Source: Gammaproteobacteria bacterium
GTDB taxonomy: Bacteria; Pseudomonadota; Gammaproteobacteria; DSM-19610
Direction: 5' to 3'
DNA length: 34,273 nt
Assembly (NCBI GenBank): GCA_026197075.1
Contig: JAPHQV010000059.1
Location: 1-34,273 of the forward strand
The translations under genes and the position numbers were made by a program. The notes below the pieces were generated by a model. That model saw only the letters and a list, made by a program, of their open reading frames with translations. It did no database searches and was not told where the DNA came from. Below, in pieces: positions 22,331-27,167 of the stretch (positions within the stretch are counted from its first letter, which is position 1; each line of letters starts with the position of its first letter).

Positions 22331-23415
22331 GCCGCCCTCCATTCCAGGCCCGCCGCGGCCACACAGGCCTGCGCCACCCGCCGCGCGGCCTCGGACTGTG
22401 CCAGGGCGCGCGCCTGTCCGGCCATGGCGACCAGGCGGGCGCGATCCGCCAGGAGCGGCTGCAGCAGTTCCGCCAGTCGCGCTGCATTCAATTGCGGCTG
22501 CGGCAGCAGCAGGGCCGCGCCCTGCTCCGCCAGGTAGCGGGCATTACCGGTCTGGTGGTCGTCCACCGCATGGGGATAGGGCACCAGGATGGCGCCGATA
22601 CCCGCCGCCGCCAGCTCGGCCACGGTCAGTGCGCCGGCGCGACAGACCACCAGGTCCGCCCAGCCGTACGCGGCGGCCATGTCGTCCACGAAGGGCTCCA
22701 CCCGTGCCGAAATACCGGCGGCGGCATAGGCCGCGCGGCCGGCATCCAGGTGGCGGATACCGGTCTGGTGCCAGACCTCGGGACGCAGGTCTTCGGGCAA
22801 GCGGGCAATGGCCGCCGGAACGGTCTCGTTGAGTGCCTGCGCCCCCAGGCTGCCACCCAGCACCAGCAGGCGTGGCCCGCCCGTGCGCTGCACCAGTCGT
22901 TCCCCGGGCGCCGGCAGGGCAGCGATGTCCTCGCGAACCGGATTGCCGGTGAGCAAGGCACCGGGCAGGGCCGCGGGGAACGCCACCATCACCTGTCGCG
23001 CCAGCGGCGCCAGCCAGCGGTTGGTCATGCCTGCCACGGAATTCTGTTCATGGATGAGCAGGGGCCGCCGCAGCAGCCAGGCCATCAGGCCGCCCGGGCC
23101 GGTGACGAAACCGCCCATGCCCAGCACCGCCGCGGGACGCAACCGCACCAGCACCCAGAAGGATTGCAGCAGGGCCAGGGCCAGCATGAAAGGCGCCGAC
23201 AGACGCCGAACCAGGCCCTTACCACGCAGGCCACTGACCCGGATCCAGGCCATCGGGAAGCCGGCCTCCGGTACCACCCGTGCCTCCAGGCCCTGGCGGG
23301 TGCCAAGCCAGGTCACCGCGATGCCCTGGGCGCGCAGTACCCGTGCCACGGCGAGCGCGGGAAACACGTGGCCACCGGTACCGCCGGCCATGATCAGGAT
23401 GGGCCGCGCGCTCAT
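22327..23415 (-). CDS. murG: UDP-GlcNAc:lipid I GlcNAc transferase MurG
   Basis: GT28 glycosyltransferase at the inner face of the membrane that converts lipid I to lipid II. The 362-residue product starts [22 protein letters not shown] with the glycine loop that binds lipid I. It continues with [29 protein letters not shown] and the donor site [40 protein letters not shown] at 23415 overlaps the ftsW stop (ATGA) and has GGAGG upstream. Confidence 0.97.
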
Positions 23416-24620
23416 GCCCGCACCCTCCGTCGCTGGGCCGGTTCCGTACCGGTCGCCTTCAGGTTGTGGACGTTGCAGCGGGTCTCGTAATCGATGCGCA
23501 GCAACAGGGCCACGGCCACGCACATGACCAGCAGGCTGCTGCCGCCGTAGCTCATGAGCGGCAGGGTCAGGCCCTTGGTGGGCAGCAGGCCCATGCTCAC
23601 GCCCATGTTGATGACGCTCTGCAGGCCGATCCAGATGCCGATGCCATAGGCCAGGTAGGCGGCGAAGGGCTGCTGACCCTGGCGCGCTACCTCGGCGATG
23701 GCGCAGGCGCGCCAGACCAGGAAGGCATATAGGGCGATGACCAGCAGTACACCCACCAGACCCAGCTCCTCGGCCAGCACCGAGAAGATGAAGTCAGTGT
23801 GCGCCTCTGGCAGGTAGAAGAGTTTCTGGATGCTGGCGCCCAGGCCGACACCGAACAGGTCGCCGCGGCCGATGGCGATCAGCGACTGGGTGAGCTGGAA
23901 GCCGCTGTTGAAGGGATCGGCCCAGGGGTTCAGGAAGGCGGTAAGGCGCGCCATCCGGTAGGGCGAGGTGATGGCCAGCAGGGCGAAGGCGCTCATCGCC
24001 ATGCCCAACAATACGGCGAATTGCCACAGCCGCACCCCGGCCAGGAAGGTCATGCCCAGCACGGTGGTCATCAGCACCACCATGGCGCCGAAGTCCGGCT
24101 CCAGCAGCAACAGCACGGCCGCCACCACCAGCACCGCCATGGGCTTGAGGAAACCGGCCACCTGGGTGCGTACCTCTTCGCCCCGGCGCACCAGGTAACC
24201 GGCCAGGTAGAGGATCAGCAACAGCTTGGCGGGCTCCGACACCTGCAGACGGAACGGACCCAGCACCAGCCAGCGCACGCTGCCGTTCACTTCGCGGCCG
24301 AGACCCGGCACCAGCACCAGGGCCAGCATCGACAGCGCCAAGGCCAGCCAGATGAAGCTGCCCCGCTCCCACACCGAGAGTTTCACCTGCAGTACCAGCA
24401 GCGCCAGCACCAGACCCAGGCCGAGGTGGACGAGCTGGCGCGTGACATAGTAGAAGGGCTGCCCCAGCTGGCGGTCGGCCATGGTGATGGAGGCGGAGGA
24501 CACCATCACCAGTCCCAGCAGCAACAGGGCACTGGTCGCCAACACCAGGCCGGTGTCAAGGCGTGGGCAACGCCCCGCCGGCCGGAAGCGGGCACCCAGG
24601 CGGGCGGCGACGGCCATCAT
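23412..24620 (-). CDS. ftsW: Septal peptidoglycan glycosyltransferase FtsW (SEDS family)
   Basis: Polytopic SEDS protein (402 aa from ATG 24620) that polymerises lipid II at the septum together with FtsI. About ten hydrophobic segments can be followed, starting LVLATSALLLLGLVMVSSAS. Family signatures include GRGDLFGVGLGASIQKLFYLPEAHTDFIFSVLAEELGLVG and the C-terminal LPLMSYGGSSLLVMCVAVALLL. The start forms an ATGA overlap with murD and has GGAG 8 bases upstream; the much longer upstream extension of the frame is murD read in another frame. Confidence 0.97.
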   Translation of the reverse strand: MMAVAARLGARFRPAGRCPRLDTGLVLATSALLLLGLVMVSSASITMADRQLGQPFYYVTRQLVHLGLGLVLALLVLQVKLSVWERGSFIWLALALSMLALVLVPGLGREVNGSVRWLVLGPFRLQVSEPAKLLLILYLAGYLVRRGEEVRTQVAGFLKPMAVLVVAAVLLLLEPDFGAMVVLMTTVLGMTFLAGVRLWQFAVLLGMAMSAFALLAITSPYRMARLTAFLNPWADPFNSGFQLTQSLIAIGRGDLFGVGLGASIQKLFYLPEAHTDFIFSVLAEELGLVGVLLVIALYAFLVWRACAIAEVARQGQQPFAAYLAYGIGIWIGLQSVINMGVSMGLLPTKGLTLPLMSYGGSSLLVMCVAVALLLRIDYETRCNVHNLKATGTEPAQRRRVRA

Positions 24621-25954
24621 GACAGACGCTCCACGGCCGCGGTGAATACGCGCCCGCGCTGTGCGTAGTTTTCGAACATATCGAAACTGGCGCAGGCCGG
24701 TGACAACAACACGCAGTCCCCGGGGACGGCCATCTCGTCGGCACAGGCCACTGCCTCTTCCATGCTGCGCGCATGCACCACCGGCACCACGCCGCGCAGC
24801 ACCTGCTCGATGAGTGGTGCATCGCGTCCGATCAGTACCGCACCGCGACCGGCGGTTGCCATGACCCGCGCCAGGGGCGTGAAGTCCTGGCCCTTGCCCT
24901 CGCCGCCGGCGATCAGCACCACCGGGCCGCTCATGCCCGCGATGGCCGCTTCCGTGGCCCCTACATTGGTGCCCTTGGAATCGTTGTACCAGGTGACGCC
25001 CTGGCGTTCGCGCAACCACTGGGTGCGATGGGGCAGGCCGGGAAACTGGCGCAGGGTTTCGAGCATGGCGTCCATGGTCAGGCCCATGCCCGTGCCAATG
25101 GCCAGTGCCGCCAGGGCATTGGCCAGGTTGTGTCGGCCCGCCATGCGCAATTCATCCGCTGGCAACAAGAGGTCCTCCCCCTGCGCCAGCCATTCGCGAT
25201 CTTCCCGCCGGCGCAGGCCGAAATCCCCGGCGGCCGGGACACCCAGGGTGAAACCTCGCATGGGTCGGGCCGCGTCGGCCAGGGCCAGCACTGCCACATC
25301 ATCGCGATTCACCACCTGCAGGGCCGCATTCCGGAAGATGCGTTGCTTGGCCAGCCCATAGGCCTCCTGGTTGCGATAGCGGTCCAGGTGATCGGGACTC
25401 AGGTTCAACAGCGCGGCGATGTGACCCACCAGGCTATGGGTGGTTTCCAGCTGGAAGCTGGAGAGTTCCAGTACATAGAAATCCGCACGGCTATCGTCGA
25501 GCAGGTCCAGGGCCGGCGTGCCGAGGTTACCGCCCACGCGCACTTCCTTGCCGGCGGCAATCGCCATTTCGCCCACCAGGGTGGTGACCGTGCTCTTGCC
25601 ATTGGTGCCGGTAATGGCCACCACCGGGGCCGTCACGGCACGGGCAAACAGCTCGATGTCGCCGATCACCTCCACACCACGCGCCTGGGCGCGGGCCAGG
25701 AAGGGTTCCTCCAGGGAAACACCCGGGCTCAGCACGATGCGTTCGGCGCGGGCAAAGGCCGCCTCGTTGAAGCCGCCGACGAACAGGGGGATGCCGGGCA
25801 GCTCGCGGCGCAGCTGCTCCAGGGCAGGCGGCTGCGCGCGACTGTCCGTGATGGCCACCTCGGCACCCTGGCGGGCCAGGAACCGGGCGCACGACAGCCC
25901 CGTCGATCCGAGACCGACGATCAGCGTTCTGCTGGCTGTGATCGGCTGTTCCAT
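24617..25954 (-). CDS. murD: UDP-N-acetylmuramoyl-L-alanine--D-glutamate ligase MurD
   Basis: Cytoplasmic ligase that adds D-Glu to UDP-MurNAc-L-Ala. From the ATG at 25954 (445 aa) it begins MEQPITASRTLIVGLGSTGL with the dinucleotide-fold glycine motif. The P-loop is ITGTNGKSTVTTLVGEM, followed by NLSPDHLDRY and the C-terminal NDSKGTNVGATEAAI and LLSPACASFDMFENYAQRG. GGGGA lies 8 bases upstream of the chosen start; ATGs at 25960 and 25981 are in frame and cannot be excluded. The spacer to the preceding 25-codon ORF is 44 bases, the only clear gap between mraY and murB apart from murC-orf54. Confidence 0.96.
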   Translation of the reverse strand: MEQPITASRTLIVGLGSTGLSCARFLARQGAEVAITDSRAQPPALEQLRRELPGIPLFVGGFNEAAFARAERIVLSPGVSLEEPFLARAQARGVEVIGDIELFARAVTAPVVAITGTNGKSTVTTLVGEMAIAAGKEVRVGGNLGTPALDLLDDSRADFYVLELSSFQLETTHSLVGHIAALLNLSPDHLDRYRNQEAYGLAKQRIFRNAALQVVNRDDVAVLALADAARPMRGFTLGVPAAGDFGLRRREDREWLAQGEDLLLPADELRMAGRHNLANALAALAIGTGMGLTMDAMLETLRQFPGLPHRTQWLRERQGVTWYNDSKGTNVGATEAAIAGMSGPVVLIAGGEGKGQDFTPLARVMATAGRGAVLIGRDAPLIEQVLRGVVPVVHARSMEEAVACADEMAVPGDCVLLSPACASFDMFENYAQRGRVFTAAVERLS

Positions 25955-25998
25955 TGGCATGATCCCCGCGGCAAACCCCATGTCGTTTCCGTGACTCC

Positions 25999-26076
25999 CT
26001 ACACCACCACCAGCAGCACCAGCGAGATCACTGCCAGGGTTACACCTACGATTGCCATCTGACTGCGTACGTCCAT
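25999..26076 (-). CDS. 25-residue single-span membrane microprotein between mraY and murD
   Basis: I do not recognise this as a described gene. ATG at 26076 begins MDVRSQMAIVGVTLAVISLV and ends in a run of Leu and Val directly before TAG. Residues 7-25 form one uninterrupted hydrophobic helix; the only charges are D2 and R4 near the N-terminus, which predicts the N-terminus in the cytoplasm. A near-ideal AGGAGG (26081-26086) lies 4-5 bases before the ATG and overlaps the mraY stop, stronger than the ribosome-binding sites of most neighbouring enzymes. It would be made together with MraY, murD and FtsW, so an accessory role beside one of these membrane proteins is conceivable. The alternative is a leader ORF tuning murD translation. 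Confidence 0.65.
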   Translation of the reverse strand: MDVRSQMAIVGVTLAVISLVLLVVV

Positions 26077-26084
26077 ACAACCTC

Positions 26085-27167
26085 CTACCGTATCTTCAGT
26101 GTTGCCAGGCCGATCAGTACCAGGATCACGGTGACGATCCAGAAGCGCACGATGACGCGCGGTTCCGGCCAGCCCATGAGCTCGAAATGATGATGCAGGG
26201 GCGCCATGCGAAAAATGCGCCTTCCGGTCAGTTTGAAGGACGCCACCTGCAGGATGACCGAGACGGTTTCCATGACGAACACGCCGGCCATGACGAAGAA
26301 CACCAATTCCTGGCGCACCAGTACCGCCATCATGCCCAGGGCCGCGCCCAGGGCCAGCGCGCCCACATCGCCCATGAACACCTGGGCGGGATAGGCGTTG
26401 AACCAGAGGAAGCCGAGGCCCGCGCCCATCAGCGCGCCGGCGAACACGATCACCTCGCCCGCATCGCGAATGAAGGGAATGGCCAGGTAGTCGGCAAAGC
26501 GCACATGGCCGGTCACATAGGCGAACACCGCCAGGGCACCGGCGATCATCACCGTGGGCAGTATGGCCAGGCCGTCGAGCCCGTCGGTGAGGTTCACCGC
26601 ATTGCTGGAACCCACCACCACGAAGTACACCAGCAGCACATAGCCCCAGCCCAGGTCCACATAGAAGTTCTTGAAGAAGGGCACCAGCAGCTGCACCTCG
26701 GCAGGCGTCTGTGCCGTGTAATACAGGAACAGGGCCGCGCCCAGCGCCACCACCGACTGCCAGAAGAACTTGCCGCGCGCGGACAAACCCTTGCTGTTGC
26801 GTGCCACTACCTTGCGGTAGTCGTCCGCCCATCCGATGGCGCCGAACAACAGGGTGACCACCAGCAACACCCACACGTAGCGGTTGCCGAGGTCGGCCCA
26901 CAGCAGGGTGGCCACCGCCACACCCACCAGGATGAGTGCACCGCCCATGGTGGGCGTGCCTGCCTTGGCGAGATGGGTCTGCGGACCATCGGCGCGCACC
27001 GACTGGCCGATCTGGTGGAAGCTCAGGCGCCGGATCATCATCGGACCCACCAGGAAGGAGATCAGCAACGCGGTCAGCACTCCCAGGATGGCGCGCAGGG
27101 TCAGGTACTGGAACACATTGAAACCGGTGTGGAACTGGCTCAGGTAATCGGCGAGATAGACCAGCAT
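26085..27167 (-). CDS. mraY: Phospho-N-acetylmuramoyl-pentapeptide transferase MraY
   Basis: Integral membrane enzyme that transfers phospho-MurNAc-pentapeptide to undecaprenyl phosphate, giving lipid I. From the ATG at 27167 it has 360 residues, exactly the classical length. Signatures are [11 protein letters not shown], the second-aspartate region [23 protein letters not shown] and, near the C-terminus, [19 protein letters not shown]. About ten transmembrane segments are present. The ATG overlaps the murF stop as TGATG and has GGAGG 7 bases upstream; the frame's upstream extension lies in murF. Confidence 0.98.

Follow-up and report, generated by a model that had tools for sequence, protein, structure and literature searches.

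The window, a 34,273-nt contig, carries a division/cell-wall (dcw) cluster on the minus strand, with murE, murF, mraY, a small open reading frame (smORF), murD, ftsW, murG and murC among its genes. mraY (26085–27167, minus strand), which has strong matches in relatives and can be aligned over its full length with E. coli MraY 8g01, encodes 360 amino acids and lies directly 5′ of the smORF. Directly 3′ of the smORF is murD (24617–25981, minus strand), recognized by its open reading frame (ORF) and its GxG and NGKST motifs, for which the ATG at 25981 is a candidate start. The next membrane protein in the operon is encoded by ftsW (23412–24616, minus strand; start approximate), assigned from the ORF list and its sequence character.

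The smORF (25999–26076, minus strand) lies between the mraY stop codon and murD. Read from 26076 to 25999, it consists of an ATG, 24 further codons and a TAG, with the sequence ATG GAC GTA CGC AGT CAG ATG GCA ATC GTA GGT GTA ACC CTG GCA GTG ATC TCG CTG GTG CTG CTG GTG GTG GTG TAG, and encodes the 25-residue peptide MDVRSQMAIVGVTLAVISLVLLVVV, a predicted single-span membrane microprotein. A Shine-Dalgarno (SD) sequence, AGGAGG (26081–26086, minus strand), whose duplex with the anti-SD is worth −11.1 kcal/mol, overlaps the mraY stop codon TAG (26087–26085) and is separated from the smORF ATG by 4 nt. From the end of mraY the strand reads AAGATACGG TAG GAGG TTGT, followed immediately by the smORF start. 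This is the arrangement that the original prediction had described, and we confirmed it on the minus strand.

One explanation for such an arrangement is that both the ORF and its ribosome-binding site arose by chance and that there is no gene, as the frame is short and its composition simple and hydrophobic (rich in GTG and CTG, in a genome rich in G+C). We counted comparable ORFs in the 34-kb window, to which these chance estimates apply. Among 115 ATG-initiated ORFs of 20–30 amino acids, only the smORF combined a 5-nt SD core with a strongly hydrophobic 15-residue segment, and no such ORF appeared in 40 Markov-resampled windows. With a chance expectation of approximately zero in the window, and with the conservation and purifying selection described below, the chance explanation is refuted and retains almost no probability.

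Homologues occupy the mraY-murD junction in 31 genomes belonging to three orders. These include all 20 genomes from the window's order, which contains Thiogranum and is represented by three genera (Thiogranum sp. is among the named carriers); 10 of 11 genomes of a second order; and one (G398) of the 18 genomes read from a third. Within the window's order, every member with a readable interval after mraY has a small frame beginning with ATG, usually behind an SD-like site. A profile, A1, built from 17 homologues (consensus MDEKSQIAxVGVTFAVIAVLLVLL), gave one strong match per genome in all 20 members of this order (E 1e-11 to 1e-15) and no second copy or similar match at other places in these genomes. 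A class-wide search recovered two second-order genomes (E 1e-6 and 2e-4), in both of which the match lies between mraY and murD. Peptides from the second order include MDVRYQMKIVGLTFLVMSVFWLLV, MDLRIQMKIVGLTFLLMSLLWLVL and the divergent MDLRWQFGVVAILFLGMGLVFWVM, while the G398 homologue starts with GTG and reads MDIKSQIAIVSAALLIISLVLSLM. In all 31 carriers, the smORF is directly after mraY and before murD, and the peptide is 24–27 amino acids long. The original prediction named the lack of a hydrophobic short frame with an SD at this position in relatives as a refutation, and the comparison revealed that relatives do have such a frame.

Outside these carriers, the frame is missing. The smORF is absent from 17 f153 genomes and from G389; apart from G398, the third-order genomes read have a spacer without such a frame, often 100–137 nt to the MurD motif. 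We detected no comparable ORF in 107 mraY-murD intervals from other gammaproteobacterial families (27 + 80), a set in which, for a few members, murD was not within the piece read downstream of mraY. Wider profile searches of 369, 349 and 339 genomes of the class and phylum yielded no further credible homologue, standalone or otherwise; the remaining matches (E 3.5e-4 to 5e-3) were hydrophobic pieces of longer frames of 115–467 amino acids and were rejected. At four loci (L028 in G051, L170 in G109, L190 in G230 and L204 in G208), murD is not directly 3′ of mraY in the pieces read, which suggests local breaks of the cluster. At another, L110 in G376, the mraY-murD spacer is enlarged to approximately 231 nt before the MurD motif and contains a G/C-rich stretch absent from its sisters; this looks like an insertion after loss of the microprotein.

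The smORF reading frame is under purifying selection. Pooled over 13 sister-type pairs, pS was 0.385 and pN 0.094, a ratio of 0.24. When the same changes were placed at random in a neutral simulation, pN/pS was 0.77 ± 0.11, and none of 400 runs gave a ratio as low as 0.24. Column entropies at the first, second and third codon positions were 0.72, 0.24 and 1.25 in the first order and 0.78, 0.44 and 1.04 in the second, so that second positions are the most constrained, although a requirement for hydrophobicity alone could explain part of the second-position signal. In the closest pair of loci (L001 and L002), 68 of 1080 bases have changed in mraY against one of 78 in the smORF, a change confined to the stop codon (TAG to TAA). 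All 28 distinct peptides carry Gln-6, and Val-10 and Phe-14 are nearly invariant. Thus, codon positions evolve with a strong synonymous bias, which, with the homologues in relatives, supports the proposal of a microprotein at this site. As the frame has been preserved by evolution across three related orders, we consider it almost certain, from comparative sequence evidence, that the smORF, although unannotated, is a translated and selected gene.

To place gains and losses, we compared the distribution with trees of the flanking genes. The MraY tree joins the three orders in one clade. On a combined MraY and MurD tree, three changes are needed, one gain and two losses, with one loss on the branch leading to G389 and the other within the third order, once G398 had diverged. 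G398 branches deepest in that order, as would fit an ancestral gene that was lost later, and the distribution as a whole fits a single origin with two losses. Since the two trees disagree on where the window's genus and the long-branched G101 belong, placement within the clade is not firm. The two lineages that lost the smORF kept MraY. Judged from these genomes, the microprotein is dispensable on an evolutionary scale and would have a modulating role, not that of an essential subunit.

The peptide has the character of a membrane helix. Wimley-White octanol sums from residue 7 to the end were −8 to −11 kcal/mol for the five peptides computed, and we infer that a hydrophobic helix spanning residues ~7–24 inserts in the inner membrane. 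Charged residues are confined to the N terminus (Asp-2, often Glu-3, and Lys/Arg-4, with none at the C terminus), and membrane orientation is not predictable from these. The conservation moment along the peptide is greatest at 95 degrees per residue (P = 0.024), a weak signal but one that a helix with a single packing face would give; a 25-mer leaves little room for helix specificity. No sequence or profile match in Pfam, NCBIfam, PHROGs or the PDB was significant (best E 0.027 in one of these searches), and we found no report of a protein encoded between mraY and murD in the literature searched. At the least, the smORF defines a new family of microproteins, one that the searched libraries lack. 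We also considered that the smORF arose when the last MraY helix was duplicated in tandem, from a resemblance (IVxVxLxxI) seen by eye. We rejected it: in most genomes the likeness vanishes against hydrophobic-core shuffles, and the MraY tail is not the best match.

Another explanation is that the smORF works chiefly in cis: translating it and terminating there would deliver ribosomes to murD or set the MraY:MurD ratio, and the peptide would be incidental. Like translational leader and coupling ORFs, the smORF is short, lies just 5′ of murD and has a strong SD. Its ribosome-binding site is stronger than that of murD in 30 of 31 genomes; in the window, the anti-SD duplex of the best candidate murD start is worth −8.2 kcal/mol. 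The distance from the smORF stop to the first start in the murD frame is 17 nt in the window and ranges from −4 to 55 nt among carriers, usually below 25 nt. This short spacing and the weaker murD site suggest translational coupling to murD, which is plausible and may be a by-product. As an account of the whole, a cis role is improbable. Selection acts on the amino acids, at second codon positions above all and with Gln-6 invariant, whereas the leader RNA lacks conserved structure (mean MFE z-score of 0.14 over 31 loci) and the spacing to murD varies, making a pure leader or spacer unlikely. Moreover, the 107 intervals examined elsewhere do without an ORF of this kind, and in f153 murD is intact despite loss of the smORF. 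The suggestion in the original prediction of a leader ORF that sets murD translation is therefore disfavored as a sole function. Two to three in-frame ATGs lie near the murD start (25981 in the window, with alternatives at 25960 and 25954, and likewise in relatives), and in the first and third orders a pair spaced ~21 nt is often retained (MLAVTNxM..., MAVPxxxM...). An N-terminal extension of MurD is possible.

The explanation we favor, by analogy with known systems and with the balance tipped slightly toward it, is that the microprotein serves a membrane peptidoglycan enzyme as a small accessory or regulatory helix encoded in the operon, with MraY the preferred partner. The precedents are CydX, an operon-encoded single-helix small subunit (PMC4325964), and KdpF. 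Proteins of this type have fewer than 40 amino acids and one transmembrane helix, share an operon with a polytopic membrane enzyme, and are conserved yet plastic in sequence and often unannotated (PMC4325964, PMC6005532). The microprotein resembles them in having a single helix in fewer than ~50 amino acids and a conserved position in a membrane-enzyme operon in 31 of 31 genomes. It differs in that we found no sequence relationship to CydX or KdpF, in its location in the division/cell-wall cluster and in having a partner deduced from context. In addition, the presence of CydX correlates with the CydA Q-loop, while no partner-sequence feature clearly correlates with the microprotein. The microprotein would work like an operon-encoded small membrane subunit. 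In such a mechanism, the conserved face (Gln-6, Val-10, Thr-13/Phe-14, Ile-17 and Leu-21) would pack on the helices of a membrane enzyme translated from the same mRNA. As with CydX and KdpF, packing would tune the activity, stability or assembly of that enzyme, most likely MraY, and translation of the smORF would also feed translation of murD.

That the partner is MraY has, in our estimate, slightly less than an even chance. We prefer it because the smORF adjoins mraY in all 31 genomes, because operon-encoded helices beside polytopic enzymes can serve that enzyme, as CydX does, and because MraY can be controlled by a single foreign helix, protein E of phages. MraY also has a proposed lipid-II feedback site (PMC10914600), a further reason for the preference. 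Adjacency within an essential operon is, however, a weak pointer to a specific partner. A second candidate is FtsW, encoded two genes downstream, or the divisome, in which case the microprotein would restrain or license septal wall synthesis. The operon also encodes FtsW, itself a polytopic membrane enzyme. SidA, a Caulobacter division inhibitor that binds FtsW/FtsN, has the same anatomy as the microprotein: 29 amino acids, a single inner-membrane span and a context of envelope synthesis (PMC4211646). SidA is not known to resemble the microprotein in sequence. Unlike SidA, which is the product of a solitary, SOS-induced gene, the microprotein is encoded within an operon directly after mraY, making regulation of its own unlikely, and in 31 of 31 genomes the smORF abuts mraY rather than ftsW. 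FtsW or the divisome is a distinctly less probable partner. It is also possible that the microprotein has a membrane role unrelated to peptidoglycan, such as modulation of membrane stress or transport, and is hitch-hiking on expression of the dcw operon. Many single-span microproteins, such as AcrZ, act on partners that are not encoded alongside them (PMC7267776). However, the position of the smORF is unbroken in the 31 genomes of three orders, and first-order carriers have no other copy. We consider such a role unlikely.

The precedent for single-helix control of MraY is protein E of phiX174 and other microviruses, an inhibitor whose transmembrane segment (29–37 amino acids) can by itself act on MraY, which it does in the TM5/TM8/TM9 groove (PMC5039524, PMC11812184). 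The microprotein shares with E a single membrane helix, and its most divergent homologues (L079 in G386 and L080 in G385), of the form MD[FL]RWQFGVVAILFLGMGLVFWV[IM], have Arg-Trp at residues 4–5. This start recalls E and may mark a functional shift. The microprotein is not itself protein E: the essential kink proline of E is absent, with no proline in the 28 distinct peptides, as is the RWxxW motif, Arg-Trp occurring only in L079 and L080 and there without the second Trp.

Comparison of MraY sequences from carriers and non-carriers revealed differences at positions 180 and 184 (helix 5), 291 (helix 9), 262 and 311, numbered from the alignment to E. coli MraY, with helices assigned by nearness to Phe-182 and Phe-288. 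Within the third order, the five positions show fixed or nearly fixed differences between loci without the ORF (L109–L111 and L208–L222) and L211 of G398, which has it. Changes at 184 (V/I), 291 (F/M-L) and 311 (F/Y) occur at both losses, but were picked out post hoc and are conservative, few and within overall divergence. We treat co-variation of MraY with presence or absence of the microprotein as a lead only: MraY of G389 is no closer to non-carriers, and shares no more diagnostic residues with them, than outgroups of similar divergence. The E. coli MraY changes V291M and G186S are presumably E-resistance mutations. Positions 180, 184 and 291, together with the Arg-Trp start in two genomes, are leads, post hoc and statistically weak, for a more specific possibility: that the host helix binds MraY in the groove used by E and is the cell's own regulator of the first lipid-linked step in wall synthesis. 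We regard this as a long shot. If it were true, the helix might also protect MraY against single-gene phage lysis.

Few bacterial gene clusters have been studied as much as the division/cell-wall cluster. MraY is an antibiotic target, and understanding of its regulation began only recently. If the microprotein acts on MraY, it would be a cellular small-protein regulator of this enzyme, overlooked at the mraY-murD junction of three orders, and the carriers and the lineages that lost it would offer a ready natural comparison for testing.
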